From: Methanocalculus alkaliphilus
GTDB taxonomy: Archaea; Halobacteriota; Methanomicrobia; Methanomicrobiales; Methanocorpusculaceae
Direction: 5' to 3'
NCBI RefSeq assembly: GCF_024170505.1
Contig: NZ_JALJYG010000003.1
Location: 1-64,000 of the forward strand
Length of the DNA stretch: 64,000 nucleotides
Shown here piece by piece: positions 8,805 to 36,326 of the stretch (position 1 is the stretch's first letter; each line of letters starts with the position of its first letter). The notes beneath the pieces are model-generated. The model worked only from the letters and a program-made list of their open reading frames with translations, made no database searches and was not told the origin of the DNA. Made by a program: the position numbers and the translations under genes.

Positions 8805-8854
8805 TAGTCTATCGTATCGAAGTAGTATAACCATATTCATAGGTGATTGTACTA

Positions 8855-11062: not shown

Positions 11063-11267
11063 TCCCGCCATTTGCAACCGTTCTGAACCTCGCTGTTTTT
11101 AGTCTCCTTCACAGTCTGACAGGTAGCAGACCCAGAAATCAGCCAGGAGAGGAATGACACGATTTTTTCTTCTTTACCGCCTTTTTCACGGTACTCAGCC
11201 ATATCTCCGACCAGAGTATATTTCTCTCCCCGCGCCATATGCCATAATTAAGGAGAGGAGCTGCTCA

Positions 11268-13718: not shown

Positions 13719-13720
13719 AT

Positions 13721-14619: not shown

Positions 14620-14632
14620 AGTACCGGCTATC

Positions 14633-15406
14633 TTATTTCTGTTTACGGATCAGCTTTCCGGTTCCGCCAGCTCTCTCAACGACACCAATGACGTTTGAAG
14701 TAACCTTCTCGATCGCCTTCTCTGCAACCTTGTAATCGGTGGCGGTGACCTTGACCTGGTATCGTGGGGCGCCAAGATAGGTGATATCGACATCGACACC
14801 GGGGATCTTCGTCTCGGCACTCCTGAGGGCGCGCCTGATGATATTCACACCATCCGGTTTATCAGACATCATGTCGATGATTCCCGAGATCATCACCCTC
14901 TGAACCTTCACATTCTCGGCTGCGACATTCATGAGCGCTTCAATCACAGGGTCAGGCAGATTAAACCGGCGGAGGGCATCATCGCCCTGAATGACAAGCT
15001 CTTCAAACAAGGGATAGAAGAGCGAATACTCTGCGCGGAGGGGATCAATGATTTCGGCAGGATTAATACCGGTCGCCTCTGCGGCAAATCCTATCCATTT
15101 ATGAGCCTTCTGCTCGTTCTTCCATTCCTGGATCTTCTCACGCCGCTGGTGATCGTTGACATCCTTTAATGAGAGGTCGATATGCCCGCGCGAGGTATCC
15201 ACATGAAGGACTTTACAGACGACTTTCTGCCCCTCACGGATATAATCACGAATATATTTGATCCACCCACGCGCGATCTCGGAGATTGGTATGAGACCCT
15301 GGCGGCCTTCATATTCATCCAGGGTAACAAATGCTGCGAAGTCCTTGACATCAACGACGGTGCAGACGACCAGTTCTCCATCTTCAGGCCATAACCTCTC
15401 GCTCAT
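14633..15406 (-). CDS. eif2a: Translation initiation factor aIF2, alpha subunit
   Basis: Subunit of the heterotrimeric factor that brings initiator Met-tRNA to the archaeal ribosome. The N-terminal S1/OB domain reads GELVVCTVVDVKDFAAFVTLDEYEGRQGLIPISEIARGW. A helical domain (LFYPLFEELVIQG) and a C-terminal alpha-beta domain with a basic KLIRKQK end follow. The ATG at 15406 fits the family N-terminus (SERLWPEDGEL), while the longer frame begins at a TTG inside the S27e stop. Size is 257 residues, as expected. Confidence 0.95.
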   Translation of the reverse strand: MSERLWPEDGELVVCTVVDVKDFAAFVTLDEYEGRQGLIPISEIARGWIKYIRDYIREGQKVVCKVLHVDTSRGHIDLSLKDVNDHQRREKIQEWKNEQKAHKWIGFAAEATGINPAEIIDPLRAEYSLFYPLFEELVIQGDDALRRFNLPDPVIEALMNVAAENVKVQRVMISGIIDMMSDKPDGVNIIRRALRSAETKIPGVDVDITYLGAPRYQVKVTATDYKVAEKAIEKVTSNVIGVVERAGGTGKLIRKQK

Positions 15407-15413
15407 CAGACAA

Positions 15414-15602
15414 TCACTCAAATGTTGATACGATCTCAGCCTTTATCATTGCTTTGCCGCCGGTCGGCTCAGTAAGAAGATGGCCACAGACGATACAGTC
15501 CACAGCCGTGGTTGCCTTCTCAAAGACGATCTGCTCATTCTCACAGTCCGGACACTTCACTTTCATGAAGCTGCTCCGGTTCTCACGTGTTAATTCAACC
15601 AT
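15414..15602 (-). CDS. rps27e: Ribosomal protein S27e
   Basis: A 62-residue zinc-ribbon protein of the small ribosomal subunit. The two metal-binding pairs are CPDC and CIVCG, about 18 residues apart, and [19 protein letters not shown] is the family signature. The ATG at 15602 has a GGAGTGA ribosome binding site eight bases upstream, formed by the end of the L44e gene. An earlier GTG at 15614 sits inside that site and is rejected. Confidence 0.95.
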
Positions 15603-15610
15603 TGATAGAC

Positions 15611-15889
15611 TCACTCCGTCAGTTCAAATTTCGCAATGCGGTATCCTTTTCTCAGGTGGGCTTTGGAACATGTCTTGCAGCGGTACCTGACATTGATCTT
15701 CTTTGTTGGCTTGTCGCCTCCAGGCACCTTGCTGAATTTCCCCATATTTCCGACACGGGGCCTGCGAGCCTTCTGTCGGTCAATCCAGTGAAGACCTGTC
15801 GTCTTCCCCTTCTTGACCTTCTCGATCTCATGCTCGGTGTGTGTCCGGCAGAACGGACAGTAGGTGTTGAATTTTGCTGGTCTTTTCAT
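15611..15889 (-). CDS. rpl44e: Ribosomal protein L44e
   Basis: A 92-residue basic protein of the large subunit. It contains two zinc-binding pairs, CPFC near residue 11 and CKTC near residue 72, and the typical segment [19 protein letters not shown] in slightly altered form. It is the first gene of the L44e-S27e-aIF2a-Nop10-PAC2-EndoQ run on the minus strand. The short gap to the GINS gene (about 37 bases) suggests that transcription may continue from the primase-GINS genes upstream. Confidence 0.95.
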
Positions 15890-15926
15890 GAAAAATACCT
15901 CGATTTCAGGAACCCGAATACCATAT

Positions 15927-16535
15927 TTATTTGCGAATCCTTGTATTTAAGGCTATGTTGCGGTTGCAGAGGACATCGGCATTTGGCCGGGGAAGAACGA
16001 CGATGTCACCAGGGAGAAGTGAGTATGTCCTTCCATCATACCCCATAAACTGCTCAACAGGGGTGGTGATTCGGACCGGCGTCACCTCCTGGGGGGTGAT
16101 CACCTCCCCAGCCTCCTCCTCCACCTTCTCCTCAATAACCGGGGTCTTTCTCCGGATATGAAGTTCGACCATCGTGCTGCGTGCATGGGAGACGGCCTGG
16201 GAGACATTATCGAAGAGAAGCCGTTCCTCGGAGGTCATGAGTCGCATCATCTCCCGGTCGATCATATCCCCGTTCGCTTTGGCGGTGGCAAGCTCGATGA
16301 TCCGGCTCGTCCGGATAGCGAAGATCTCCTGGAGGAAGGACTTGATACTCTCAATCTGGCGGATCATATCCTGCGTCTCCTCAGAGAGGGGATCACCGGA
16401 GTCATAGAGAGCCCGGTACATCCGTTCGATCTCTTCATGGACGTTCTGATAGAACTCAGACGGTATATCAGTCAGGGTGCCGCTCGCCCGTTCATCAAAG
16501 AGGATCGATCTGAGGCGATCAAATGAGATGCTCAT
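15927..16535 (-). CDS. GINS complex subunit (archaeal Gins51/Sld5-like)
   Basis: GINS links the MCM helicase with primase and GAN nuclease in the archaeal replisome. The 202-residue protein has the helical A domain at the N-terminus (FYQNVHEEIERMYRAL, IRTSRIIELA, MMRLMTSEERLLFD), an acidic linker rich in Glu and Val, and a small beta B domain at the end (YSLLPGDIVVLPRPNADVL). The A-then-B order is that of Gins51. It overlaps the primase small subunit gene by four bases, a common pairing in euryarchaea. Confidence 0.88.
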   Translation of the reverse strand: MSISFDRLRSILFDERASGTLTDIPSEFYQNVHEEIERMYRALYDSGDPLSEETQDMIRQIESIKSFLQEIFAIRTSRIIELATAKANGDMIDREMMRLMTSEERLLFDNVSQAVSHARSTMVELHIRRKTPVIEEKVEEEAGEVITPQEVTPVRITTPVEQFMGYDGRTYSLLPGDIVVLPRPNADVLCNRNIALNTRIRK

Positions 16536-17689
16536 ACCATACCCCCTCCATACTCCGCAATACCCCTGGAGCAGAGGAAGATACCAAGTGCTTCAGGCAC
16601 AGTATTGATCCCCTTTTCGATGGCATAGTTGTTTCCAAGGATCGGCATCTCCAGAGCAAAGGATGATTCCACATTCACCGGACGATCGGAAAAGACGACC
16701 GCATCGATGAGCGGATCAAAGTCATCAACCTCGCGCAGATCAAGAGGAGTAACCCGGAGTCCACTCCCCCCGTGAAGAGACGAGGGGTGGCGGATGAGCC
16801 GCCTGATATCGGTCGTCACCGGCTCATCTGCAAGCGCAGCCTGATCCCGTATCTTTTTTGAGAGAATACTCTCCGGATCAGAAAACATCGCCTGCATTAC
16901 CCGGTCATGAATGCAGAATGAATAATCATTCCTCTCGATTGAACGAATGAGACCTGCACGCCGCTTCAAAAAGCTGCCAGCACCCTGTGGGGAGACCCCC
17001 CGGACAGCCGAGAGGAGTCCTGCCTGCTCATCCTGAGGCAGGGATCCGATGGTATGGAGGGTCTCTGAGACGGCCTTCTTCAGCCTCAGCCTCCACCCGC
17101 GATCCGGCAGATTCGACGGGCTCAGAAGGAGAGTCGGGGATAGCCCCGTTCCACAGACATAATCCACAAGCTCACGCCGTTCTGCACTCTTCCATGACCT
17201 CATCGCAGTGGAACGGAGATGGATATGATATCCCCGCCCTCCTGAGAAGACTATCGAGAGTTCCCGTTCAGGGTCAATCCCGCAGTCATTTGAGAGCATC
17301 TCGATCAGTTTGAGAAGCTCGTCTTTTACCCTGCCAAGCATCTGATCATAGGGGCCGCGCATGATATGATCGGCATCAAGATCAAAGATGAGATCCGCAC
17401 CCCCCCACTCCTTCTCCTCCATCACCGGGGCAGCGGGATGGTCATAATAGGCTGTCGAGTAGTAGACATGGGCCGGTGTCATCGATCTGAGATAGGAGAA
17501 GAGTTCTTCCCGTGTTGGAAATGAGAGATGACGCCGCATACCCGGCGTTATCCTGGTCCCAAAGAACATGAAACCCCATTCCCGTTGGGAGAGTGCCTCC
17601 GGTATGCCAAGAGGGGCGGTCTTTGGTATACGCCCCCCATAATAGTCAGAGAACCGGTTTTTGAGAAACTCAACGGTCGCAGATTTCAT
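16532..17689 (-). CDS. priS: DNA primase small (catalytic) subunit
   Basis: Synthesises RNA/DNA primers with PriL. The 385-residue protein carries FLKNRFSDYY at the N-terminus, the WGFMFFG segment, the catalytic triple-acid region ADLIFDLDADH, FSGGRGYHIHL and, near the C-terminus, RLIRHPSSLHGGSGLRV, all diagnostic of PriS. The start overlaps the Elp3 gene stop by four bases, and the stop overlaps the GINS gene start. PriL is not in the window. Confidence 0.95.
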   Translation of the reverse strand: MKSATVEFLKNRFSDYYGGRIPKTAPLGIPEALSQREWGFMFFGTRITPGMRRHLSFPTREELFSYLRSMTPAHVYYSTAYYDHPAAPVMEEKEWGGADLIFDLDADHIMRGPYDQMLGRVKDELLKLIEMLSNDCGIDPERELSIVFSGGRGYHIHLRSTAMRSWKSAERRELVDYVCGTGLSPTLLLSPSNLPDRGWRLRLKKAVSETLHTIGSLPQDEQAGLLSAVRGVSPQGAGSFLKRRAGLIRSIERNDYSFCIHDRVMQAMFSDPESILSKKIRDQAALADEPVTTDIRRLIRHPSSLHGGSGLRVTPLDLREVDDFDPLIDAVVFSDRPVNVESSFALEMPILGNNYAIEKGINTVPEALGIFLCSRGIAEYGGGMV

Positions 17690-19254
17690 ATAATTCGTTT
17701 CACCATATATGGTCCTTCTCGCTGATATCCCTGCTTCCGGTAATATGGACGGACACCGATGCCGCTCATCACGGCAAGACGGTGATATCCGCCGGACCGT
17801 GCCATCTCCTCTGCGGAATCAAGAAGGAGCTTCCCATAGGATCTGTGCTGCCGTTCATCCCCCAGGGGATCGGCTGTAAGAGGGACGATGCTCCCATAGA
17901 CATGCAGCTCCCGGATAAGGGCGGTATCCTCAGGACCGGGGGTGAACGCCTTCCCCGGGAAGCGAAGCCGCACAAAACCAATCAGCGAGTCTCCTGCCAC
18001 GGCCTGTATGAAGAACTCACGGCCACCACAACAGTCATAGGCAACAGATTGGATATCCCCTTCATTCGGATCAGGACTCCGTCCAATCTCACGGCACCTG
18101 ATACACCGGCATCGTTTTCCTTCCGATATGAGGTGCTGCTGCGCAAGCTGCCTGAAGTTTCCATGCCGGGAACCTGCCACGATCAGTTTGGCAGGAATAT
18201 CACGCTGGATCCGCTGGAGCCGGGTATACTCAGGAAGCTGCTCCTTTGCATAGGCGACGAGGGCGACAAGTTCATCCTCATCATACGGCCGGTACTCCCC
18301 ACGATGATAGAGCGCCTCTATCTCGGATCCTGGTGTGACCAGTGTCGGATAGATCTTGAGGAAATCAGGACGAAAATCCGGATTATCAAAGAGTTCGCGA
18401 AACATCCACTGATCGGTTTCGATAGTACTTCCTGGAAGGTTGGGCATCACATGGAACCCGACCTTGAGGCCGGCATCCCGCAGGAGCCGGTTTGCCTCTA
18501 TCGTCTCTGCAACGCTATGACCTCGCCGGTTATAGTCGAGGATATTGTCGCGTAGATGCTGAACTCCGATCTCCACCTTTGTCACACCAAGACCAAGCAT
18601 CTGCCCGATATGCTCACGCCTGCACCAGTCGGGCCGGGTCTCAAAGGTGATCGCAACACATCGGACTGCTGCATGCTCATTGGCTGATGCCGCCTCCTCA
18701 TACGTACATTCAGCCGATGATCTCTCCGGAAAATCATTCATCGCACGCAGGCATGAGGTGACAAACCATTCCTGATATGCGGGATCCCGTGCAGTAATTG
18801 TTCCACCCATCACGATCAGCTCCGCCTTATCGACATGATGTCCAAGGAGGCGGAACTGGGAGAGGCGGGCATGTACCTGTTCATATGGATCATAGGCATG
18901 CTCACGCCCACGGAGAGCCGCAGGTTCCTCACCCGTATAGCTCTGGGGAGAGCCGAAGAGGTGGTCAGGGCCTCCCGGACAGGGAAGACAGATCCCATGC
19001 GGACATGGATGGGGAGATGTCATCGCTGCGATTGGAGCAACACCTGAGAGGGTTCTTGTCGGCTTGACCATCAGAATTCGCCGGAGATATTCACGTTCAT
19101 CAGGTCTCGCCGCCGCAAGGATGGCGGAGTTCTTCGGCATCACCGCGAGGCGGTATTTGCGGCAGACAGAGAGCTTGACCCGCTGGATATCCTCAGGCGT
19201 AGCTGCAGAGGGAAGAAGGGAGATAATCTCCCGATACGCAGTTTGTTCGTCCAT
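17686..19254 (-). CDS. elp3: Archaeal Elp3, tRNA U34 carboxymethyl modification enzyme
   Basis: Radical SAM and acetyltransferase enzyme that starts cm5U formation at wobble uridine. The iron-sulfur motif is CPHGICLPCPGG (CX4CX2C form) at about residue 90. The radical SAM barrel follows with FETRPDWCRREHI and GVQHLRDNILDYNRRGH. A C-terminal GNAT domain begins after the RCRCIRCREIG zinc site and ends with the MSGIGVRPYYRKQGY motif. The ATG at 19254 is preferred; a TTG at 19278 would add eight residues. Length of 522 residues is normal. Confidence 0.95.
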   Translation of the reverse strand: MDEQTAYREIISLLPSAATPEDIQRVKLSVCRKYRLAVMPKNSAILAAARPDEREYLRRILMVKPTRTLSGVAPIAAMTSPHPCPHGICLPCPGGPDHLFGSPQSYTGEEPAALRGREHAYDPYEQVHARLSQFRLLGHHVDKAELIVMGGTITARDPAYQEWFVTSCLRAMNDFPERSSAECTYEEAASANEHAAVRCVAITFETRPDWCRREHIGQMLGLGVTKVEIGVQHLRDNILDYNRRGHSVAETIEANRLLRDAGLKVGFHVMPNLPGSTIETDQWMFRELFDNPDFRPDFLKIYPTLVTPGSEIEALYHRGEYRPYDEDELVALVAYAKEQLPEYTRLQRIQRDIPAKLIVAGSRHGNFRQLAQQHLISEGKRCRCIRCREIGRSPDPNEGDIQSVAYDCCGGREFFIQAVAGDSLIGFVRLRFPGKAFTPGPEDTALIRELHVYGSIVPLTADPLGDERQHRSYGKLLLDSAEEMARSGGYHRLAVMSGIGVRPYYRKQGYQREGPYMVKRII

Positions 19255-24912: not shown

Positions 24913-26682
24913 TCAGGTTGTTTCAAAAAGGCGGATCGTATCCTCGATCCCCTCTAATGCCGCATCCAGTTCACCCAGCCTGACCGCCACGGTATCTGCA
25001 TGCTTTTTTCTTTCCGTACATGCTGACGAGATAGCGCCATGGGTTGCCTCGATGGTGAGGGAGAGATGCGTTTCAAAATCTGTGCTGAATTTTCTGAATG
25101 CCGAATCAATATTCTGTATCGTCTCCCATCTGAGATTCTCAAGGTTTTGCACCAGCAACGATTCGATATGCCGCTGTGCACGATCCCTGGCACGTTTTTT
25201 CCGAACTGCTCCGGGTAACAATTTTCCGACAACGCCAGGGGGGACGGGAGAGAAGGTCCGATCCCATGCACGATCGATCCAGGAGGTCCGTCGTACCGGT
25301 TCGTATACCCGTTGTCCATCCGGGGCATGGTACGGAATATCAAAGAGATCAGCTGCAGCTTTCCGGATGGATTCGATCAGGAGGTCCGCCTGTACCTGAT
25401 GCTCTTTCAGGCGCATGGCGATCTCCCTGTCCATCCTCTCGGTGAGTTTCCCAAGTTCACCCTCAAACCATCCGGGGATAGCGTCTGCAAGAGCCTCCTG
25501 AGCTGCATTGTCCGGATCATCCTCCGAGTTCAGAATGGCATTCTCCGCAACCGAGGTGAGCATGTCACGAAGCGGATCGGAGAGATCCCTGATATGATTC
25601 TCAAGCAGTTCACGGACACGCTTGTGGTCGCCAGCCAGAATATCGCTCGTTGTTATTCTCCGGGAGTTGATCTCGCTGATTTTCCGGTCAAAGAGTGCAA
25701 GCCTCTCTTCAAGCTGGTTGAGAGGCAGTTTTCGTGCTTTTCTCTCAAGGCTCAGCTGGAGGTGGATCTCCCGGAAGATATCATATGCCTTTATCCCAAT
25801 TGCTTCTCTCAGGACACGATTCTTATCATGAGCGAGAAAGTTGACGATATGGTCGTAGATCGCTTTAAGCCCGCTCTCCTTCCAGAGTGCGGCATCCCCT
25901 GACAACTGAGCCTCAAGCCCTTGCCGTGCAGAAACGGCAAAAATCGGCGTTGCGGGATCAATGCCAGCATCCTGAATTAATATGGTGCGAAAAAAGTCAA
26001 GAGCCCTGACCCGGTCGGTATCGTTGAGATAATCGACCTTATTGAGAACAAAGAAGAGATACCCGACGCGGTTTTTCACTTCCCTGAGGAATGCAACCTC
26101 AACTTCGGTGATGGGTGGATCTGCGGAGATTACAAAGAGTGATGCATCACATTGCGGCAGGAAGTTCATCGTAGCTTCTGTATTGTGCCTGTATATCGAA
26201 CCGATGCCGGGGGTGTCAATCAGGACCACATCACGGAGCAGCTCTCCGGGATGATCGATCTCAACCTCGCGAATCCCTTTACAATTCTTTGGATTTTCAT
26301 CCTCACTGATATACTGCATCAACTGATTGTTCAGCCAGAGGGATGAGTCACCATTCAGTACAATGTCAGGCCTGGTATCAATATAACGAACCCTCAGTGT
26401 CTGCTGATCGCCATACCGGATAAATGTCGGAAGAGCGGTGAGCGGGATCACTGAGCTTGGGAGTACATCCTCTCCGATCAGCGCATTCAACAGTGTGCTC
26501 TTGCCACGCTTGACCTGGCCAAGAACCGCGAGATGGAATCTGCCCTCCAGAAGGCGCTCCTCAAGGTGACGCAGCCGCTCTGCATAATGCTGGCCCCACG
26601 AGCCATTCTCCTCCAGACGACGTTGTTGATCAGAAAGTACTTTCTCAAGATTTTCAGGAATTGATAGCCGTGTATCATCCAT
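24913..26682 (-). CDS. Dynamin-like large GTPase
   Basis: A 589-residue membrane-remodelling-type GTPase. The G domain lies at about residues 45-270: P-loop AVLGQVKRGKSTLLNAL, G2 threonine in VIPLTALPT, G3 VLIDTPGIGS and G4 FVLNKVDY. A long helical region follows, with a hydrophobic-poor middle and charged heptad-like stretches (LNQLEERLALFDRKISEINSRR; REAIGIKAYDIFREI). The ATG at 26682 has GGAGG about ten bases upstream, so the longer frame to 26772 is not used. Only one dynamin gene is present, whereas bacterial members often occur as pairs. Possible roles are membrane repair or stress tolerance (inference). Confidence 0.85.
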   Translation of the reverse strand: MDDTRLSIPENLEKVLSDQQRRLEENGSWGQHYAERLRHLEERLLEGRFHLAVLGQVKRGKSTLLNALIGEDVLPSSVIPLTALPTFIRYGDQQTLRVRYIDTRPDIVLNGDSSLWLNNQLMQYISEDENPKNCKGIREVEIDHPGELLRDVVLIDTPGIGSIYRHNTEATMNFLPQCDASLFVISADPPITEVEVAFLREVKNRVGYLFFVLNKVDYLNDTDRVRALDFFRTILIQDAGIDPATPIFAVSARQGLEAQLSGDAALWKESGLKAIYDHIVNFLAHDKNRVLREAIGIKAYDIFREIHLQLSLERKARKLPLNQLEERLALFDRKISEINSRRITTSDILAGDHKRVRELLENHIRDLSDPLRDMLTSVAENAILNSEDDPDNAAQEALADAIPGWFEGELGKLTERMDREIAMRLKEHQVQADLLIESIRKAAADLFDIPYHAPDGQRVYEPVRRTSWIDRAWDRTFSPVPPGVVGKLLPGAVRKKRARDRAQRHIESLLVQNLENLRWETIQNIDSAFRKFSTDFETHLSLTIEATHGAISSACTERKKHADTVAVRLGELDAALEGIEDTIRLFETT

Positions 26683-26851
26683 TGCCGTATTTCCTCCGGT
26701 TTTCATGCGAATAGCCGATACCTCTTCTGTTGACGTACCATTGGCATTCGGATGAGCAGGAGTTATCAGCACAAAATGCGGTTAACGGTGAACTCCATCA
26801 CCAGATAAAGATTATATGCCGACAAAGATAGTTAATCCTTTGTTTATCCGG

Positions 26852-26862: not shown

Positions 26863-26904
26863 GAAAAAGAAAACTATTTGCCGGATTACTCATCATCTTT
26901 AACA

Positions 26905-27267
<363 letters not shown>

Positions 27268-27287
27268 TGAATGCCGACATAGGTATG

Positions 27288-27297
27288 TTTAAATATA
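27288..27297 (+). promoter_or_regulatory. TATA box for tnpB
   Basis: tttaaatata lies about 25 bases before the tnpB ATG at 27319 with no ribosome binding site between. The message is therefore probably leaderless. Confidence 0.5.
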
Positions 27298-27318
27298 CTT
27301 TTGAGATATGTATATATA

Positions 27319-28449
27319 ATGCTTCTAACAGTGAAGGTGAAACTCCATCCAACCGAGGATCAGCACCAGAAACTGCTCCGTACAATGGAGCGTTTCAACG
27401 AAGCATGCAACTATATTTCAGAATTCGCCTGGAGAAACAAGGTTTTTAACAAAGTCGACCTTCAAAAGAACCTGTACTATGACATTCGCGGTACATTCTC
27501 CCTGTCATCTCAAATGGTAATTCGTGCGATTGGCAAAGTATCCGAAAGTTATCTTGCGGATCGATCCGGTTACCATGAGTTCAGGCCTCATGGAGCAATC
27601 ATCTATGATCAACGTATCCTGGCGATAAAGACTCCTGATACCTGTTCTATCCTGACACTTGACGGAAGAGAGATGGTATCGATGTCATATGGCAGATACC
27701 AGCCTCTCGATCTCAAACGGGTAAAGGGTCAGGCTGATCTCGTCCTCGTCAAGAACCAGTTCTATCTCCTGATCGTGGTAGACGTACCTGAAGAACCACA
27801 GATTGAACCTGAGGAGATCATCGGAGTCGATCTCGGTATCGCCAATATCGCAACAACATCGACAGGTGAAACCTTCTCCGGGCAGAAATGTACTGAATCC
27901 AGAAAGAGATACACCCGTATTAAAGCGGATCTTCAATCCGTTGGTACATGGGACGCAAAAAAACATCTCAAAAAACTCAGTGGAAAAGAACGCCGATTCA
28001 AGAATGATACAAACCACTGTATCAGCAAACAGATCGTCGCTGAAGCCAAAGGCACACAATCCGGTATCGCGTTGGAAGATCTGACAGGTATCCGTGATCG
28101 GACACCCGGTTATAAGGCGTTAGCAGCGGCAATCGGTAAATGGGCGTTTTATGAGATAGCAATGTACATCCGATATAAAGCACATATGGCTGGTATCCCG
28201 GTCTACCTCGTTGATCCCCAATATACATCCCAACAATGTTCTCATTGTGGATATACGAGCAGGGAAAACCGGAAAACCCAGTCTGACTTCTTCTGTATCA
28301 AATGTGGATATACGGATAATGCGGATATCAATGCCGCAAAAAACATTGCATCAAGGGCTGATGTCAACCAGCCTATCGCACTCCGTCCTGAACCTAAACG
28401 GTCAGGAAGATGGAAGGGCAAGCCCACGACTTCAGTCGTGGGTAGTTGA
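27319..28449 (+). CDS. tnpB: TnpB RNA-guided nuclease of the IS1341-type element
   Basis: TnpB proteins are small RNA-guided DNA nucleases related to Cas12. This 376-residue copy looks complete. It has an N-terminal helix-turn-helix region (LHPTEDQHQKLLRTMERFNEACNY), RuvC-I with Asp in GVDLGIANIATTS, RuvC-II with Glu in GIALEDLTGIRDR, a zinc ribbon (CSHCGY ... CIKCGY), and RuvC-III with Asp in NADINAAKNIA. The last residues (KPTTSVVGS) are encoded by the right-end stem-loop, so gene and guide-RNA scaffold overlap. It reads in the same direction as eno. Confidence 0.93.
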   Translation: MLLTVKVKLHPTEDQHQKLLRTMERFNEACNYISEFAWRNKVFNKVDLQKNLYYDIRGTFSLSSQMVIRAIGKVSESYLADRSGYHEFRPHGAIIYDQRILAIKTPDTCSILTLDGREMVSMSYGRYQPLDLKRVKGQADLVLVKNQFYLLIVVDVPEEPQIEPEEIIGVDLGIANIATTSTGETFSGQKCTESRKRYTRIKADLQSVGTWDAKKHLKKLSGKERRFKNDTNHCISKQIVAEAKGTQSGIALEDLTGIRDRTPGYKALAAAIGKWAFYEIAMYIRYKAHMAGIPVYLVDPQYTSQQCSHCGYTSRENRKTQSDFFCIKCGYTDNADINAAKNIASRADVNQPIALRPEPKRSGRWKGKPTTSVVGS

Positions 28450-28470
28450 CGAGGCGACTGAACTTCGTGA
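28350..28470 (+). ncRNA. Predicted omega RNA (reRNA) of the TnpB element
   Basis: In known TnpB systems the guide RNA is made from the 3-prime end of tnpB and the right end, and the guide begins at the element boundary. Here that would be the tnpB tail, the hairpin at 28423-28442, TAGTTGAC, and a guide starting at 28451 (gaggcgactg...). The 5-prime limit is a guess. The guide equals enolase coding sequence, so it would match an eno copy lacking the element, next to TTCAC. Confidence 0.5.
28423..28442. repeat. Right-end stem-loop of the TnpB element
   Basis: Second copy of the CCCACGAC-TTCA-GTCGTGGG hairpin, eight bases before the right cleavage site. It overlaps the last codons of tnpB. Confidence 0.9.
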
Positions 28471-29593
28471 CAATAATCATGAGCGGTTCATGGGAATGGG
28501 CGTTCTTACTGCCGTGGATCACGTGAATCGAACTCTCGCTCCATCCCTGATCGGAATGGATGCAGGAGATCAAAGGGCCATTGATCTGACCATGATTGAT
28601 TGTGATGGCACCCCGAATAAGAGCAGGATTGGTGCAAATGCGATTCTCGGAGTATCAATGGCAACAGCCCGCGCCGTTGCGCTATCACAGGGAATCCCGC
28701 TGTATGAGTATCTGAAGATAGATGCAGGATATCTGATGCCGGTCCCGATGATGAATGTTCTCAACGGAGGAGTGCACGCGCAATGGCAGGGAGCGGATTT
28801 TCAGGAATATATGATTGTCCCCTTCGGTGCCCCGGATTTTCGCACAGCACTTCAATGGGGGGCTGAAACCTATCATACATTACAGATCCTCCTGAAGAAG
28901 AAAGAGTACCCGACTGCTGTAGGGGATGAGGGTGGCTTTGCCCCGAAGGTGGCATCCAATGAAGAGCCGCTTGAGCTCATCACCGAATCAATTGAGGAGG
29001 CGGGATATACACCGGGCAGAGAGATTGGCATATCACTCGATCCTGCATCAAGCGGCTTCTTTTCTGATTCGAAATATGAACTGAAGCGTGAGGGGAGGAG
29101 ACTGGATAGCAACGAAATGATTGCATATTACCGATCACTTGTTGAATCATACCCCATCATCTCAATCGAGGATGGCCTTGCCGAAGATGACTGGAAAGGG
29201 TGGGTAAAACTGACAAATGAGCTTGGAGAGGATATCGAGATTATTGGAGATGATATCTTCGTCACATCCAGGCCGCTTGTACAGAGAGGAATTGAGACAG
29301 GGGCAGCAAATTCCGTGCTGATAAAGCTTAATCAGATTGGAACCGTTACCGAAACACTCAGCACAATCAGATCTGCACGGGATGCTGGCTGGGGTATCAA
29401 TATATCCCATAGGAGTGGAGAGACGTCCGATTCCTTCATTGCAGATTTTTCCATCGCCACATCCGCAGGAAAACTCAAGACCGGTGCACCCTGCCGGGGC
29501 GAACGTGTTGAGAAGTACAATCAGCTCCTGAGGATTGAGGAAGAATTAGGGAGTAAAGCAATGTACGCAGGAAGAAAGGCATTCATACGGTGA
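28451..29593 (+). pseudogene. eno: Enolase, 3-prime part
   Basis: Codons 49-428 of enolase, starting EATELRDNNHERFMG, continue without any stop or frameshift. Catalytic and binding segments are present: GANAILGVSMATARAVA, NVLNGGVHAQWQGADFQEYM, DEGGFAP, ISIEDGLAEDDWKGW, IIGDDIFVT, LIKLNQIGTVTET, ISHRSGETSDSFIADF. Joined to 27085-27228 it gives 428 residues, normal for enolase. The lack of decay suggests a recent insertion. A shortened product could start at an internal ATG near 28490 but would lack the N-terminal lid region. Confidence 0.9.
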
Positions 29594-30084
29594 TTTCCCT
29601 GACCAGTACAAACGATGGCAGGATGAATGAACACCAGGAACGTCACCTTCGTACTACCTGCCGCCATATCGATAGAAAGATCGCAGAAATAGAAGAGATA
29701 TTGGACGGTTCAGGGGCAGATACTCTCTTCCCGAGGTATTGTACGGATCTAACAGCATATCAGAAAAGGGCAGTCAGAGAGTATTGTTCCCTCATCCGGT
29801 CACGGCTCATCACGATACTTGACGAAGAGGGGATCTCAGGAGACTCATCAGCGATTCCCATGAAGCGAGCGATTCAGAGCAGACTCTGTTCCATCGATTG
29901 CGCAGCAGAGGAGCTCAGGCCAAAGTACACAGAAGGGTTTGGTGACGTTGCAGAAACCCTCGCTGCAAAACTCAACCGGATCGCTGGAGAGCTCCAGGAT
30001 CCCGTCATCCACCTCATGCAGTACCTTGAGACGGAGAGCGAGGAAGATCCGGATACCACCCTCGAAGAACAGGATACGGCATAG
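29590..30084 (+). CDS. Hypothetical helical protein coupled to eno
   Basis: I do not recognise the family. The frame of 164 residues begins with a GTG that overlaps the eno TGA by four bases; an ATG at 29623 is the alternative start. The protein is predicted to be mostly helical and soluble, with charged segments (HIDRKIAEIEEILDG, LAAKLNRIAGELQ), three cysteines in the middle region, and an acidic tail (ESEEDPDTTLEEQD). It should be co-transcribed with eno behind the fluoride riboswitch, so its expression may be affected by the TnpB insertion. Confidence 0.65.
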   Translation: MISLTSTNDGRMNEHQERHLRTTCRHIDRKIAEIEEILDGSGADTLFPRYCTDLTAYQKRAVREYCSLIRSRLITILDEEGISGDSSAIPMKRAIQSRLCSIDCAAEELRPKYTEGFGDVAETLAAKLNRIAGELQDPVIHLMQYLETESEEDPDTTLEEQDTA

Positions 30085-30124: not shown

Positions 30125-30454
30125 TTATGGCCTTTTCCTGATCATCTGTACCTGCTGGATAATTACCAGCCCGTGCTCCACCATCTCCTCCACCTCAGGT
30201 ACAACAGCCATAATCCTCTCGCTTGTGTCTACCAGATCGATGACAACCGGAAGGTCCAGTGAAAGGTTAAAAACATCCACTGTCCTGAGTTTCTTCTCAT
30301 GACCAAAGCCGATCATACCCCGGAAGACGGTGCATCCTGGAAAGCCTTTCTCTTTGAAATACTCAACAAGAACCTTATACCCTGTTTTACCATTAATTTT
30401 CGCCGATTCAGCAATATAAATGCGAAGTAACAATCCATCGTCCAACATACTCAT
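30125..30454 (-). CDS. DUF190 family protein associated with fluoride channels
   Basis: A 109-residue soluble protein. The sequence LLRIYIAESAKINGKTGYKVLVEYFKEKGFPGCTVFRG, followed by GFGHEKKLRTVDVFNLSLDLPVVIDLVD, matches DUF190, a ferredoxin-like fold related to PII proteins that is commonly encoded next to crcB. It lies 10 bases after a crcB gene and is the last gene of the minus-strand fluoride operon. Its biochemical role in fluoride resistance is not known; a regulatory or ligand-binding role is inferred from fold. Confidence 0.85.
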   Translation of the reverse strand: MSMLDDGLLLRIYIAESAKINGKTGYKVLVEYFKEKGFPGCTVFRGMIGFGHEKKLRTVDVFNLSLDLPVVIDLVDTSERIMAVVPEVEEMVEHGLVIIQQVQMIRKRP

Positions 30455-30464
30455 TTCTCCATTC

Positions 30465-30815
30465 TTAGCAGCATAGTATCAGCAGATATCCAAGGCCCAC
30501 TCCAAGAATACTTCCTGCACAATTTAACAGGATATTTACCCCCATTGTGTTATAATCATGGTTTTCCAGCATCCTGAACGTCTCAAAGCTGAATGTTGAG
30601 AAGGTTGTCAATCCCCCAAGAGATCCGGTTGCTATGAGGCGAATCGAATCTTCAAACATAACCGAGAAGACGATAACGGATAGGAGGAAGCTGCCAATTA
30701 CATTAACGAGCAGCGTTCCGGTCGGAATACCCCCAAGCGGCTGAAGCTTTGAGATTTCGTACCTGAATACCGATCCGACAGCCCCTCCGATACCAAAAAG
30801 AAGTATGGATTCCAT
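30465..30815 (-). CDS. crcB: Fluoride channel subunit CrcB/Fluc
   Basis: Small membrane protein of 116 residues with four helices that exports fluoride as a dimer. It has GIGGAVGSVFRYEIS at the N-terminus including the conserved Arg, LLVNVIGSFLL with the pore Asn, and GGLTTFSTFSFETF, the phenylalanine-box and TFSTF region that bind Na+ and F-. A second, different crcB lies one base upstream, so the pair probably forms a heterodimer of opposite topology. The operon starts at a fluoride riboswitch near 33179. Confidence 0.94.
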   Translation of the reverse strand: MESILLFGIGGAVGSVFRYEISKLQPLGGIPTGTLLVNVIGSFLLSVIVFSVMFEDSIRLIATGSLGGLTTFSTFSFETFRMLENHDYNTMGVNILLNCAGSILGVGLGYLLILCC

Positions 30816-30816
30816 C

Positions 30817-31182
30817 TCAAATCCCTCGTTTGTAGGTTATCAGGTACCTGCCGATATAGATCCCGGAAAGCCCCATGAGGAGGTTCGTAATAATATTCAT
30901 AACTGCAATATGCGGAGTCGCAAGAAAAGTCTCCACAGCGAGCGTCGAAAATGAAGTGAACGACCCGGTCATACCAACTCCAAAGAAGAGACGCGCCTCA
31001 CGGCTGAATGCCCCGATGTAAATTGATTCGTACATAAAAATACCGATAAAGACACAGCCGACAACGTTCGCAAAAAGGGTTCCAGGGAGTGATGGAATCA
31101 ACTGTTCAACACATTTATGGAGAGCCGCCCCGATGAAGCCCCCCAGTGCGATGAGGAGGTAGAGAACATAATTACTCTTCAT
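30817..31182 (-). CDS. crcB: Fluoride channel subunit CrcB/Fluc, second copy
   Basis: A 121-residue four-helix protein of the Fluc family. It has GGFIGAALHKC where the first copy has an Arg, TLFANVVGCVFIG with the pore Asn, and TGSFTSFSTLAVETF with the conserved Phe residues. The C-terminal tail is basic (YKRGI), unlike the first copy, which fits opposite membrane orientation in a heterodimer (inference from charge distribution). It overlaps the winged-helix gene by 11 bases. Confidence 0.93.
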   Translation of the reverse strand: MKSNYVLYLLIALGGFIGAALHKCVEQLIPSLPGTLFANVVGCVFIGIFMYESIYIGAFSREARLFFGVGMTGSFTSFSTLAVETFLATPHIAVMNIITNLLMGLSGIYIGRYLITYKRGI

Positions 31183-31834
31183 TCTGTGTTTCTCCTGTCA
31201 GAATTTCCGGATAATTCGTATTAGATTCCCGGAGTTTCGCTGCCTCATGTGATAGAGAAGCTCTCGCTTTGCCGATTACGTCTGCAAACCCCTCACCAAG
31301 ACCGCCGTACCTGATGTCCCGTATTACACCATGAAGGAAAATCTGGTAATAGATGCATTTCTCATCAAATTCAGGCTCGGAGAGGCCGGAAAGCTGATTT
31401 ACGAGGATCGTCTGGCGATATATCTTTCGTATTTCATCAGGAGATTCAAAATGACATAACGTGTCAAAGAACGTATGCGAAGCTCTGACCATCTCATCAA
31501 TAAGCTCCGGCAGATCGCCGTGCAGGGTTTTGAATGGTCCGGTAAAAATCTCGCAGAACCACGGTACTCTTCGAATCTCCGGGCGTAGATCATGAAATTC
31601 CGGATAGTGATAGACCTTCAGCAGTGCTTCGCGATTCCGGTTCAACTGGCAACAATGTCCCGTCCCTCCCTTCTCTTTCTTTCTTACGATAAATCCGGCC
31701 CGTTCAAACGAATCTATCCATTTCCTGATCGTCGCTACCCTGGTAAACCCGACACCGGTTGCGAGATCGATCTCACGGTGGGATTTGCCATCAAGCAGAA
31801 TCCGCATCAGCGGAGCCTTGACCGGTGATTTCAA
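31172..31834 (-). CDS. Winged-helix protein in the fluoride operon
   Basis: The first 75 residues form a winged helix-turn-helix domain (LMRILLDGKSHREIDLATGVGFTRVATIRKWIDSFERAGFIVRKK with a KGGTG wing). The remaining 145 residues are an alpha-helical domain I do not recognise, with aromatic and acidic residues that could form a ligand pocket. The start is a TTG at 31834 with a strong AAGGAGG ten bases before; an ATG at 31807 is an alternative. It overlaps both neighbours: by four bases the zinc-ribbon/HEAT gene and by 11 bases crcB. It may regulate this operon or other fluoride genes (inference). Confidence 0.78.
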   Translation of the reverse strand: MKSPVKAPLMRILLDGKSHREIDLATGVGFTRVATIRKWIDSFERAGFIVRKKEKGGTGHCCQLNRNREALLKVYHYPEFHDLRPEIRRVPWFCEIFTGPFKTLHGDLPELIDEMVRASHTFFDTLCHFESPDEIRKIYRQTILVNQLSGLSEPEFDEKCIYYQIFLHGVIRDIRYGGLGEGFADVIGKARASLSHEAAKLRESNTNYPEILTGETQNEE

Positions 31835-32226
31835 GGAAGGAGTTCCTCCTTACCCGTGTCAGAGACGGTCCGGCAGGCCTTTCGCACTACCACAGACGGG
31901 TGGTGATTCAGCCTTTCCAGTAAGCGGCGGCTTTCATCAGTGCAGAGTAATGAGAGGGAAAAAACGATCTCCCGCAGAAGATACACATCCGTTTCGGTAG
32001 TGACAAGATGTGCAAATACCGGTAGTGCAGGTTCAAACCTCAGTTGCCCGAGTATCTGTATCGCAATCATTCGTTGTGCCGGGATCGGATGGTTCAGGGA
32101 ATGAAGGAGACGTTCCTCATATGGAGTTTGTCTCCAGGAATCAAGGCCTTTTCCGCATACAGGGCAGACCTGGAGATCAGTTGATCCTTCAGCCCAGCAA
32201 AAGGGACAGAAATACGTTATGCTCAT
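31831..32226 (-). CDS. Zinc-ribbon and HEAT-repeat-like protein
   Basis: A 131-residue protein. The N-terminus has a zinc ribbon with CPFC and CPVCGKG about 14 residues apart. The rest reads as two or three short helical repeats typical of HEAT-like folds (RMIAIQILGQLRFEPALPVFAHLV, LLREIVFSLSLLCTDESRRLLERL). HEAT-like repeats usually bind other proteins, so it may be a scaffold. It lies 15 bases after the toroid protein gene and overlaps the winged-helix gene. Function is unknown. Confidence 0.72.
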   Translation of the reverse strand: MSITYFCPFCWAEGSTDLQVCPVCGKGLDSWRQTPYEERLLHSLNHPIPAQRMIAIQILGQLRFEPALPVFAHLVTTETDVYLLREIVFSLSLLCTDESRRLLERLNHHPSVVVRKACRTVSDTGKEELLP

Positions 32227-32241
32227 CTCCGGAGACCACCC

Positions 32242-33120
32242 TCAGGCAACTGCCAGGAGATCAGATCTCCCTTCGGCATTATCATTTCGGCTAATCCTGA
32301 TCATCCGCAATGCATCCAGCGCGTAATACGTATTTTCCAGCGTCGTCGAACCTCCAAAAATCGATCGTACATATCCACCGTTTGCATGGTAGCATCTCCG
32401 AATGAATGATTCACAGTGGCGAAGGAAAGAGGAACGGTATCCGAGGATTGAGGATGCAAGAAGGCCGGCATGAACATCCTCAAGATACGAGGGGCGTACG
32501 CCGGGCATGGGAAGAAAACCATATTCCAGGTCCTCACAACGCTGAATGAATAGCTCAGACCCAGGTACTGCAACAGGGTACCCAAGATTATGAAGTATTG
32601 AGAGAGCATGAGAGGTTTCTGCCATGGTTGGAGATTGAGAGCCAAACCCCCCCTCATTATTTCTCTGATTACGAACTGCAGTACCGATTGTTTCGCATCT
32701 CTTTTCGGGAAGGGTGATGCTCAGGCACCGGCAGAGACTGGTCAGAAGATACAACTGCCATAAGCCAGAAGACGATTCTATCGGCCGGGTTCGATCAGAC
32801 GGCGGGAGGAGCGAAGAGAGGATCCAGTCTGATGGGTCCCTGGATGGCTTGTCGCCGAGAAGAATCAGGCTTCTGATCACCGCATATCCGACATACACAT
32901 TTGAGAAACTGCCATCCTCTCTCTGAAATGTATGAAGAAATGAGAGAGTATCTTCATCGTCTTCAGGGATCGAATCGAGCATCTGAAGCGATGCAAGAGC
33001 ATAGTATGTATCGGAGGCATTTGGTTCATTCAGGCGGTAAAAACAATATCCGCCATCCTGACACCGTCTTTCCCGAATATACCGGATAGTGAACTGAAAA
33101 GGATGTATCATCGGCATCAT
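32242..33120 (-). CDS. Prenyltransferase/squalene-cyclase-like alpha-alpha toroid protein
   Basis: A 292-residue protein with about five repeats of the type seen in prenyltransferase beta subunits and squalene cyclases. Recurrent units are CQDGGYCFYR, DTYYALASLQML, REDGSFSNVYVGYAVIRSLILLG, NNEGGFGSQSPTMAETSHAL, DVHAGLLASSILG, ANGGYVRSIFG and TTLENTYYALDALRMI. I see no DCTAE cyclase motif, so it may be a binding or isoprenoid-interacting protein. Its ATG directly follows the fluoride riboswitch hairpin at 33121-33137, making it the first gene under fluoride control. This link is unexpected. Confidence 0.78.
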   Translation of the reverse strand: MMPMIHPFQFTIRYIRERRCQDGGYCFYRLNEPNASDTYYALASLQMLDSIPEDDEDTLSFLHTFQREDGSFSNVYVGYAVIRSLILLGDKPSRDPSDWILSSLLPPSDRTRPIESSSGLWQLYLLTSLCRCLSITLPEKRCETIGTAVRNQRNNEGGFGSQSPTMAETSHALSILHNLGYPVAVPGSELFIQRCEDLEYGFLPMPGVRPSYLEDVHAGLLASSILGYRSSFLRHCESFIRRCYHANGGYVRSIFGGSTTLENTYYALDALRMIRISRNDNAEGRSDLLAVA

Positions 33121-33185
33121 CTACCATTATCTGGTAGAAGTCATCAGCCGACGAGGCAGTTTTGGCGGACTTCATCGCCATTGGA
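33121..33185 (-). ncRNA. Fluoride riboswitch (crcB motif) before the crcB operon
   Basis: Read on the minus strand from 33179: GGCGATGAAGTCCGCC, then AAAACT, a short GCC/GGC hairpin, and GGCTGATGACTTCTAC (to 33134). This matches the crcB consensus and the copy before eno almost base for base. The 3-prime CTACCA then forms a 6-base hairpin with TGGTAG (33121-33137, loop GATAA) that abuts the ATG at 33120. The aptamer 3-prime end and this hairpin share bases, suggesting a switch that hides or frees the start codon. The mechanism is inferred; the aptamer match is strong. Confidence 0.9.
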
Positions 33186-33212
33186 AATACTATTGGAGAT
33201 TCAGAGAGTGTA

Positions 33213-33692
33213 TCACTTGTCTTGTGTACAGACACAATCTGAGCATAAAAACCTGATCGTCATATCACCATGCACAAGATCACCGATGATCTTCTTGGCA
33301 CCACCGAAGAATATGACCCGTCTGCATGTGGAGCACCGTTTCGGAAGTATCCTCTCCATCCTCGAGAGATCCGCATCAAGCGCAAACCGGGTGTTCTCAC
33401 CGGGGACGGCCGGGCATTCGCCCTCCTCATCGATCCTGGAAAGGAGTCTGTATACCTGAAGCGGATGCGCTCCATACTCCTGGAATTTTCTAAAGAGGAA
33501 ATACTGCAGCACAAGCCATGATAATTCTGACCGCTCGATGCTGTCATCAAACTGGATCTCTTCCTCTGAGGCATCAACATCACCGACTGATGAACCACAG
33601 AGGGGGCAGTCACCGCCGACGAGCTCTTCAATATAAACTTCTTCACGACACCCAGGGCATGTGGTGTGGCGTGCGTGTGTACGATATCCCAT
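33213..33692 (-). CDS. Zinc-ribbon protein of unknown function
   Basis: A 159-residue protein with two likely zinc sites: CPGCREEVYIEELVGGDC with PLCG near the N-terminus, and CSTCRRVIFFGG with a later CSDCVC near the C-terminus. The middle part is acidic and helical. The ATG at 33692 gives the cysteine motif close to the start; a further upstream start at 33716 is possible. It lies 28 bases upstream of the fluoride riboswitch on the same strand. Whether it belongs to the same transcript is open. Confidence 0.68.
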   Translation of the reverse strand: MGYRTHARHTTCPGCREEVYIEELVGGDCPLCGSSVGDVDASEEEIQFDDSIERSELSWLVLQYFLFRKFQEYGAHPLQVYRLLSRIDEEGECPAVPGENTRFALDADLSRMERILPKRCSTCRRVIFFGGAKKIIGDLVHGDMTIRFLCSDCVCTQDK

Positions 33693-33716
33693 ACCTTTCT
33701 CTCCGGACTCAACCAT

Positions 33717-33890
33717 TCCTATTCAGCATGCTCATCTGGGCCGGTATCGCCGGTACCACACGCCCCCGGTAGACAGGGGGTTCCGTTCAGTGATAGATCT
33801 TTGTTATTAGATCATATAAATATATTTCTCTATGCAAAATAGGACTTTCATTTCAAAAAATGGATATTTTAAATTTTTACGAATATATAA
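33717..33890 (-). promoter_or_regulatory. Promoter and GC-rich leader before the zinc-ribbon gene
   Basis: On the minus strand, AT-rich sequence at about 33812-33832 (atatatttatatgatc) could be a TATA box. It is followed by a leader with a hairpin of five C-G pairs (33763-33781) and a second GC-rich dyad with GGTACC and GGTATC. The leader does not match the fluoride aptamer. The part near 33835-33890 is very AT-rich and lies after the copper ATPase stop. Confidence 0.35.
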
Positions 33891-36326
33891 TCAATTTACC
33901 ACCTCAAGCTTCTTTGCTGGTGGAGTATATCCCTTCAGGAGAAGGGAGAGAGAGACGATGGTGACAGAGGAGAGCGCCATGGCAAGACCGGCATACTCAG
34001 GCCGGAAAGTAACCCCAAAGAACGGGGTAAGGAGCCCGGCTGCAATCGGGATGAGAAGAATGTTATAAATAAAAGCCCAGAAGAGATTGCCCCTGATCCT
34101 CCCCATCACCTTTTGTGAGAGCTGGATCGCGGCCGCCGCATCAATGAGATCATCATGCATCAGAACGATCCCACCGGTCTCAACCGCTACATCGGTTCCA
34201 CCTGATATGGCAATGCCGACATCGGCCTGTGCAAGCGCCGGAGCATCGTTGATCCCATCACCGATGAAGGCGACAACACCCCCCTGCTCCTGAATTCTCT
34301 GCACCTCCAGAGCCTTTCTGTCAGGGAGAACACCGGATAATATCTTCGAAATACCAACCTTCTCACCAATGACACGGGCAGTTCGCTCATTATCACCTGT
34401 GATCATCACCACGGCGAGCCCCATTTCCGTGAAAGCTTTCACAGCAGTTGCTGAGGTTGGTTTGAGGGGATCGGTGATGGCAAAGAGACCGGCATACCGC
34501 CCATCCACAGCAACGAGCGGAACGGTTTTGCCTTCATTTTCCAGTCGAACCATCGAACCGAGAGCCTTCTTTGGAATAGAGACCGAGCGGCTTTCCAGGA
34601 AGGCACGGGTACCAATCATGACGGACTGGCCATCTATCACTCCCAGAACTCCCTGGCCCCCTATCGTCTCAAATCCGGTCACATCTCCGGCAGCAATTCC
34701 GGCTCTCCCGGCCTTCTCTGCTATCGCCGTTGCCAGAGGATGAAGGGAGAGTTTCTCCACAGACCCGGCAAGATAGAGGAGGTCGTCTTCGGATCTCCCG
34801 GAAGGAACGACATCAGTAACGACAGGGCGGCCCATCGTCAGGGTGCCGGTCTTATCAACAGCAACAGTGGTGATCGCACCGGACCGTTCCAGTGTCTCGC
34901 CGCTGCGGATGAGAATACCAAGTTCGGCACCCCTGCCGAGACCGACGGTGATCGCCGTCGGGGTCGCAAGCCCGAGCGCACATGGACAGGCGACGACAAG
35001 GACGGAGATGAGTGCCGTCGTTGCAAAGAGGAGTGTTTCACCGAGGATAACGTACCAGAGAAAAAACGAGACGGTGGCGATCAAAAGGACAAAAGGTATG
35101 AAGATTGAGACAACGGAATCCGCAATCCGCTGAACAGGGGGTTTTGTTCCCTGCGCCTCCTCAACCATCCGGATGATCTGTGCAAGAACGGTATCCCTGC
35201 CGATCCGTGTTGCCGTGACGGTGAGGGTTCCGCTGGTGAGGATCGTTCCCCCAATAACCTCGGATCCATCCACCTTCATCACCGGGACCGACTCACCCGT
35301 CACAAGAGATTCATCAACTGACCCTTCACCCTTTATTACAATGCCATCAACGGCGACAGCTTCCCCGGTTCGGACGAGGATCTGATCTCCGGCCTGGATC
35401 TCATCTGCTGGGACCTGTATCTCTGTACCATTCCGAAGCAGGGTCGCTCTCTTGGGCTGGAGCGAGATGAGGGACCGGATGGCTTCGCCTGTCCTGCCTT
35501 TGGCACGTGCCTCAAGGTACCTGCCGAGGGTAAGAAAGGCAGCAAGCATGACAGCCGTCTCATAGAAGTTGAATTCACCTGTAAGGAAGATATTAAAGGT
35601 CGATAGGACACTGGATCCATAAGCGGTTCCGATACCCATCGCATACATAACATCCATATCAAGGATGCCATTGGAGAGGGAACGTACTGCTGACCGGAAG
35701 ATGGGATAGGCAAGGTAGAGGAAGAATGGGGTCGAAACCAGGAAGAAGAAGTACGGCATCGGGAGGGGGAGCGGGGGGTGGAGATACATCACAAGTATCA
35801 GAACGGCAGAGACGGCAAACCCGATGATCGAACGGGTGAGTTTCTCTCGGAGATCCTTCTCCTGTGCTGCCTGCTCCTCCTCTGCTCCTTCATCACCAGT
35901 GCTATGGGCGGTATACCCGGCAGAGGTGATCGCTTTCTTCAGCTGATCAACCGATATAATGCCAGGATGATAGCTGATGGTCGCCTGTTCGGTTCCGAGA
36001 TTAACAGATGCTGAAACGACACCGGGGAGTGAGGAGAGGATCTTCTCAACCCCCGCCGCACACATCGCACAGGTCATCCCGCCAATACGAATGGTGATCG
36101 TCTGAGCTGCAGGGGTGAAGCCGGCTTTTTTGATCGCTTCTTCTATCTCCGGTAAGGGAATGGTCTCTCCACCCAGTACAACCCGTACCTTTTCGGTGGC
36201 GAGATTCACGGTGACGGAATCGACGCCCTCGATCTCTGATACGGCCTTCTCCACCGCGAGAGCACAGCTTGCGCAATGCATCCCGACAATTCCAATATCA
36301 ACTGCCTTTCTGTTCTGATCGGTCAT
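33891..36326 (-). CDS. copA: Copper-exporting P1B-type ATPase with two metal-binding domains
   Basis: An 811-residue heavy-metal pump. Two N-terminal HMA domains carry GMHCASC and GMTCAMC. About eight membrane helices follow, with the transport-site motif ACPCALG, the phosphorylation motif DKTGTLT, actuator motif TGESVPV, the P-domain GDGINDAPAL and the nucleotide-domain HP in LSLHPLA. CPC together with the NxxxP-type end of the last helices indicates copper(I). It follows the ferritin gene by 33 bases on the same strand, suggesting joint expression in metal stress. Confidence 0.95.
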   Translation of the reverse strand: MTDQNRKAVDIGIVGMHCASCALAVEKAVSEIEGVDSVTVNLATEKVRVVLGGETIPLPEIEEAIKKAGFTPAAQTITIRIGGMTCAMCAAGVEKILSSLPGVVSASVNLGTEQATISYHPGIISVDQLKKAITSAGYTAHSTGDEGAEEEQAAQEKDLREKLTRSIIGFAVSAVLILVMYLHPPLPLPMPYFFFLVSTPFFLYLAYPIFRSAVRSLSNGILDMDVMYAMGIGTAYGSSVLSTFNIFLTGEFNFYETAVMLAAFLTLGRYLEARAKGRTGEAIRSLISLQPKRATLLRNGTEIQVPADEIQAGDQILVRTGEAVAVDGIVIKGEGSVDESLVTGESVPVMKVDGSEVIGGTILTSGTLTVTATRIGRDTVLAQIIRMVEEAQGTKPPVQRIADSVVSIFIPFVLLIATVSFFLWYVILGETLLFATTALISVLVVACPCALGLATPTAITVGLGRGAELGILIRSGETLERSGAITTVAVDKTGTLTMGRPVVTDVVPSGRSEDDLLYLAGSVEKLSLHPLATAIAEKAGRAGIAAGDVTGFETIGGQGVLGVIDGQSVMIGTRAFLESRSVSIPKKALGSMVRLENEGKTVPLVAVDGRYAGLFAITDPLKPTSATAVKAFTEMGLAVVMITGDNERTARVIGEKVGISKILSGVLPDRKALEVQRIQEQGGVVAFIGDGINDAPALAQADVGIAISGGTDVAVETGGIVLMHDDLIDAAAAIQLSQKVMGRIRGNLFWAFIYNILLIPIAAGLLTPFFGVTFRPEYAGLAMALSSVTIVSLSLLLKGYTPPAKKLEVVN

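Follow-up and report, generated by a model that had tools for sequence, protein, structure and literature searches.

Our comparative analyses indicate that a protein of alpha/alpha-toroid fold encoded at the head of an operon in the archaeon Methanocalculus alkaliphilus almost certainly represents a fluoride-response family and that its operon belongs to the fluoride response. As judged from its genomic associations, the family very probably contributes to microbial fluoride survival in a way that had gone unrecognised. Fluoride defence as known consists mostly of export, by Fluc and CLC-F proteins, and of increased production of the inhibited enzymes. In the window studied here, a stretch of 64,000 nucleotides of contig NZ_JALJYG010000003.1, the toroid gene (TOR) precedes five others in what is probably a fluoride-inducible resistance operon, with the toroid and a nearby dynamin-like GTPase (DYN) proposed to provide a second, exporter-independent arm of resistance. 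This reading gives an orphan toroid family and an archaeal dynamin a testable function.

All six genes were confirmed as open reading frames on the minus strand, in the order TOR, HEAT, winged-helix, crcB, crcB, DUF190, with successive spacings of 15, -4, -11, 1 and 10 bases (Table 1). The overlaps of 4 and 11 bases and the short gaps reported in the preliminary description were thereby recovered, and the single transcription unit that it proposed fits both this tight packing and the order conserved behind a fluoride riboswitch. The aptamer scores well above the RF01734 gathering score of 34 bits and ends 7 bases upstream of the annotated toroid start. Since the riboswitch and all six genes recur in identical order in another Methanocalculus genome (G086, locus L064), where the first three proteins share ~55–65% amino-acid identity with those studied here, the operon is more than a chance assembly. 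The toroid matches the Prenyltrans family PF00432 with 49.1 bits (6.9e-13; Pfam cut-off 26.5). Both CrcB proteins exceed the Pfam cut-off for CRCB (32.9 bits) and fall below that of the NCBIfam equivalog TIGR00494 (74.7 and 54.4 against 80.45), and the DUF190 protein lies far above its own (23.4 bits). The HEAT protein reaches 26.0 bits with HEAT_2, slightly short of the cut-off of 27.7, and the winged-helix protein has a weak, sub-cut-off match to MarR (12.7 bits); in profile comparison it matches the winged helix of TFE with an E value of 0.002.

Table 1. Features of the fluoride-related region, in coordinates of the window
Feature	Position	Strand	Basis
Dynamin-like GTPase (DYN), frequent TOR partner gene	24913..26682	-	Dynamin_N, BDLP profile, AF2 fold
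Second fluoride riboswitch, upstream of dynamin-like GTPase gene	26750..26811	-	RF01734, 55.7 bits
Third fluoride riboswitch, upstream of enolase	26902..26962	+	RF01734, 53.2 bits
Fluoride-regulon enolase	27085..29593	+	PF00113, 388 bits
P164 protein, enolase-linked	29590..30084	+	Alignment; DYN/P164 double matches
DUF190 protein	30125..30454	-	PF02641, 114 bits; relatives of solved structures 2dcl, 1o51
Fluc subunit crcB b	30465..30815	-	PF02537, 84.2 bits
Fluc subunit crcB a	30817..31182	-	PF02537, 64.7 bits
Winged-helix protein with conserved C-terminal domain	31172..31834	-	Alignment, TFE winged-helix profile match
Zinc-ribbon and HEAT-repeat gene	31831..32226	-	HEAT_2 1.1e-5, CxxC pairs, alpha-Rep-like profile match
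Toroid protein (TOR) gene	32242..33120	-	PF00432, predicted structure, alignment
Predicted expression platform hairpin	33120..33138	-	Aptamer tail TCTACC pairs with GGTAG; inferred from sequence
Fluoride riboswitch aptamer of six-gene operon	33128..33188	-	RF01734, 55.6 bits, E 1e-12

At the search sensitivity used, the genome (2.09 Mb in 37 contigs, 99.9% complete) contains exactly three fluoride riboswitches, all of them within the window. The second and third are divergent and precede the GTPase and the enolase, respectively. The GTPase thus has a riboswitch of its own, 6 kb from the toroid operon and beside the riboswitch-controlled enolase; the preliminary description had overlooked both genes. 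The operon aptamer sits slightly outside the interval 30125–33120 to which the preliminary description referred. The true start of the toroid is likely base 33111, as Met4 is invariant across the family, and a GGTAG motif lies 9 bases ahead of this codon. When leaders from Methanocalculus and Methanoregula were folded, the CTACC tail of the aptamer paired with GGTAG or GGTGG in nine of nine toroid leaders. In locus L068 the hairpin reaches into the 3' strand of the aptamer (CTTCTACC/GGTGGAAG), making hairpin and aptamer mutually exclusive there. The leader looks like a translational on-switch, in which fluoride binding would free the GGTAG ribosome site from the aptamer-tail hairpin and raise translation.

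The association of the toroid with fluoride extends far beyond this genome. Searching 199 genomes of Methanomicrobiales with each family, we found 34 toroid loci in 33 genomes, and an RF01734 riboswitch upstream on the same strand at every one of them, contrary to the absence of linkage to fluoride genes that would have spoken against the preliminary description. The riboswitch lies 8–39 bases away at 26 loci and ~1.93 kb away at the other 8, where the intervening gene is the dynamin-like GTPase. Riboswitches occur in 59 of the 199 genomes (52 above the cut-off), including 33 of the 33 with a toroid (Fisher 8e-22, a value that, like the other Fisher value given here, overstates the evidence because related genomes are not independent). 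The toroid family is bound to the riboswitch more tightly than crcB, which in the same genomes is preceded within 3 kb by a riboswitch on its own strand at only 17 of 32 loci. By this measure, relatives of the HEAT protein are linked at 14 of 21 loci, the exceptions being mostly the weakest matches, and those of the winged-helix protein at 12 of 14, so that each of the three additional families suspected of a role in fluoride resistance is indeed riboswitch-linked in many other genomes. The succession TOR-HEAT-winged-helix-crcB was encountered in only two genomes of one genus, which implies that the HEAT and winged-helix families are linked less strongly to crcB than to the riboswitch.

A scan of ~85,000 genome records yielded 38 toroid loci, including some in Syntrophales, other bacteria and one Hodarchaeota bin. 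In bacteria, too, the toroid follows an RF01734 riboswitch, either by itself or in company with the GTPase, an enolase or a HIT protein, L158 being the exception. In a phylum sample of 295 genomes, more distant toroids were found at 21 loci in other orders, 12 of which adjoin a riboswitch. Five of the 21 have TOR, crcB and DUF190 in succession (L208, L211, L216, L217, L218), and three of these lack a detected riboswitch (L218, as well as L208 and L216, where a search relaxed to E 1 also found none), indicating that the link to crcB is independent of the riboswitch. Neither a riboswitch nor an adjacent crcB was detected at the distant loci L158 and L160 (again at E up to 1) or at L204, L205, L212 and L215 in other orders. 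Toroid and HEAT genes occur together in L207, L209 and L215.

The predicted structure of the toroid (AF2, pLDDT 90) has the beta subunits of protein prenyltransferases as its top PDB matches, with a Z score of 25 and 2.6 Å across 255 residues for RabGGTase and FTase beta. This likeness, together with the PF00432 match, is what favours an active prenyltransferase or terpene cyclase modifying lipids or proteins under fluoride stress, and the preliminary description had offered, as an example, a toroid acting on membrane isoprenoids. The conserved residues do not bear out such an enzyme. The alignment of 61 toroid sequences contains no conserved His (the best column reaches 32 of 61), which implies that the Asp/Cys/His zinc triad of the prenyltransferase beta subunits is not kept; Cys columns reach at most 47 of 61, and the DxDD acid motif of squalene-hopene cyclase is found in one sequence of the 61. 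None of the operon neighbours has a conserved C-terminal Cys available for prenylation; CaaX or CC prenylation was considered and rejected, the CC end of the second CrcB protein being present here and in no other copy. No alpha-subunit (PPTA) repeats were found in the operon, and the search of the whole genome gave only sub-threshold PPTA matches, a background that control genomes show as well. With the fold present but neither zinc triad nor DxDD conserved, we find no support for activity as a prenyltransferase or cyclase and regard an active enzyme as very unlikely. The toroid shares the full-length alpha/alpha toroid fold of FTase, GGTase and RabGGTase beta (Z ~25) but only ~15–18% identity with them, has no evident alpha subunit in its operon, and differs in its own invariant residues, Arg18, Thr38, Glu214, Arg252 and Glu262. 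Also conserved in the family are Gly23-Gly24, Gly201 and Pro206 and, in the C-terminal part, Gly248-Gly249, Gly257 and Leu261. In a closed ring the terminal repeats lie side by side, so a single site may be built from Arg18, Thr38, Arg252 and Glu262.

The GTPase encoded in the window, a frequent partner of the toroid, contains Dynamin_N (2.1e-27) and matches the BDLP profile (4e-41), and its AF2 model (pLDDT 81) aligns over its full length with IniA (Z 24.6 over 520 residues) and BDLP (Z 21.4 over 509), at rmsd values of 7.5–8.2 Å that are expected given flexible stalks. The G1 GxxxxGKS/T, G3 DTPG and G4 N/TKxD motifs are invariant columns of the GTPase alignment, and the model includes a predicted long helical stalk of the BDLP/IniA type. 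A hydrophobic tip segment is confined to the Syntrophales copies, the archaeal ones being less hydrophobic. Like the toroid, the GTPase stands behind a riboswitch at nearly all its loci in the order (32 of 33, the remaining locus starting 69 bases from a contig end). Both genes occur together in 27 genomes (Fisher 1e-22 across the 199), that is, in 27 of 33 genomes with the toroid and 27 of 32 with the GTPase; six genomes have only the toroid and five only the GTPase, some of them being incomplete. The two genes are adjacent in archaea (L075, L077, L079, L083, L092, L137) and in bacteria (L147, L149, L157, L158). An apparent fusion in L074, with an open frame of 922 residues, was discarded, since it consists of separate frames 2 bases apart. 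Shared regulation alone can explain the co-occurrence of the two genes; their excess persists within riboswitch-bearing genomes (p 8e-5), and on this genomic evidence we consider it fairly likely that toroid and GTPase work together.

The distribution of exporters bears on whether the toroid serves the channel encoded beside it. Tuning of CrcB or DUF190 by the toroid, acting as a regulatory or fluoride-binding subunit to which the GTPase would be linked only secondarily, could account for the runs of TOR, crcB and DUF190 described above in other orders and for the arrangement TOR-riboswitch-crcB-DUF190 in L089, L092 and L096. CrcB, present in 31 of the 199 genomes, is nevertheless absent from 21 of the 33 genomes with a toroid, which makes such a subunit quite unlikely and implies that the toroid arm is not merely a helper of CrcB. 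The operon as an accessory of crcB alone was rejected for the same reason. In 14 of the 33, nine of which are listed as at least 95% complete and some of which are incomplete, we found neither CrcB nor any CLC. A riboswitch-bound toroid with a GTPase partner, in genomes where neither Fluc nor CLC was found, suggests that fluoride can be survived by a route not yet recognised. In those genomes, export could be handled by a riboswitch-linked MFS protein or Na/H exchanger.

In the explanation that we favour, the two CrcB proteins would form a fluoride channel tuned by DUF190, and the toroid, with the GTPase expressed from the neighbouring riboswitch, would constitute the second arm, independent of the exporter. 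By analogy with DynA and IniA in other stresses, the GTPase would act at the membrane. The toroid would be its non-catalytic partner, perhaps gripping an isoprenoid lipid or phosphate through the invariant arginines, the HEAT protein an adaptor and the winged-helix protein, from its fold only, a second-layer regulator. More speculatively, and with somewhat less than an even chance, GTPase and prenyltransferase-fold toroid may form a new exporter-independent defence machine that guards the membrane against HF entry or strips fluoride complexes from enzymes; the same tentative reading would make this machine ancient and widespread in archaea and bacteria alike. As the actual job of the arm we favour membrane protection, an idea borrowed from other dynamins, though at a likelihood well below one half.

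Alternatively, GTPase and toroid might free or protect metalloenzymes blocked by fluoride, enolase above all, which we deem unlikely; it seems equally unlikely that they would do so by removing tightly bound Mg-fluoride-phosphate complexes, in the manner of GTPase or ATPase reactivators elsewhere. The toroid gene lies directly beside enolase at many loci (L070, L071, L073, L075, L077–L081, L083, L136, L137, L143, L209), and other riboswitch-first genes of these islands encode Mg/phosphoryl enzymes such as glutamine synthetase. Nevertheless, the long stalk of membrane-remodelling dynamins would be unusual in an enzyme reactivator, and enolase is already known as a fluoride-regulon gene in its own right (PMC11139923).

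With RF01734 (crcB) riboswitch regulons the genes described here share the aptamer, the CrcB pair, DUF190, enolase, the Na/H exchanger and MutS-like genes, several of which are known riboswitch targets (PMC2864571, PMC11139923). By contrast, the families of the toroid, the dynamin-like GTPase, the HEAT protein and the winged-helix protein go unmentioned in the passages of open papers that were consulted, and many genomes with these families have no known exporter. Among the open-access papers searched, none describes a link between the toroid and fluoride or anything joining the fluoride riboswitch to dynamin, prenyltransferase or DUF190, and the same holds for COG1689. The partner GTPase has the GTPase motifs and long helical stalk of BDLP, IniA and DynA, the last two being stress-linked membrane GTPases (PMC6715688, PMC8844932), and differs from all three in being controlled by a fluoride riboswitch, encoded with a toroid, and archaeal as well as bacterial.

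In the toroid and GTPase trees the copies from the window fall among those of Methanoregula, a member of another family, with modest node supports around the window copy in the toroid tree (0.77 and lower nearby), and the toroid is present in 3 of the 8 genomes of the genus. This placement and patchiness make horizontal spread of toroid and GTPase likely, within a putative mobile fluoride island that comprises the six-gene operon and two further units under riboswitch control. Such an island might simply have carried unrelated genes into a fluoride operon; the patchy occurrence and the TnpB-type element that interrupts the enolase near base 27230 (TnpB at 27319–28449) are compatible with hitch-hiking, but riboswitch linkage across several archaeal families and bacterial lineages, in differing gene orders, makes chance association extremely improbable. 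Behind the enolase lies P164, a protein that belongs to no Pfam family and whose homology is to the N-terminal portion of another dynamin-like GTPase, encoded elsewhere.

Only 24 bases separate the fluoride aptamer of the six-gene operon from the zinc-ribbon ORF that lies, together with a heavy-metal P-type ATPase gene, upstream of it in the window, and the operon promoter is therefore probably located inside this ORF, or the ORF is co-transcribed with the operon. The order of the two upstream genes and the riboswitch is kept in three Methanocalculus genomes.

The element that interrupts the riboswitch-controlled enolase carries TnpB as its sole gene and the hairpin GCCCACGACTTCAGTCGTGGG at each of its ends. 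The genome also encodes a second enolase (G000:C8:40721-41521), divergent from the interrupted one.

At four loci the fluoride islands encode in addition a second dynamin-like GTPase, whose N-terminus corresponds to the domain of P164, the protein encoded behind the window enolase.

Coordinates of features in the window and at compared loci (L)
Feature	Location	Positions	Strand	Remark
Zinc-ribbon ORF and heavy-metal P-type ATPase	window	33213-36326	-	just upstream of operon riboswitch
Riboswitch-controlled enolase, interrupted	window	27085-29593	+	split near 27230 by IS200/IS605-type element
Second dynamin-like GTPase with N-terminal P164 domain	L067	14186-16240		
Same	L069	8792-11005		
Same	L094	12259-14253		
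Same	L097	10291-12330		

The island of genome G012 (L063) lacks crcB, DUF190 and enolase, and its HEAT protein (9474-9878) has lost the zinc-ribbon cysteines. At the proteobacterial locus L158, no fluoride riboswitch was detectable at the gene run 7333-18992, ordered AAA, dynamin-like GTPase, toroid protein, phosphofructokinase, CNNM, MFS, MutS-like pair, HEAT and cyclopropane synthase. Three genomes (G097, L066; G143, L068; G188, L067) possess six to eight fluoride riboswitches each, grouped within a single island of ~20 kb. Glutamine synthetase (cluster c76) occupies the first position after a fluoride riboswitch at these three loci and at L065 and L101, as do F420-0:gamma-glutamyl ligase-like genes in L066-L068.
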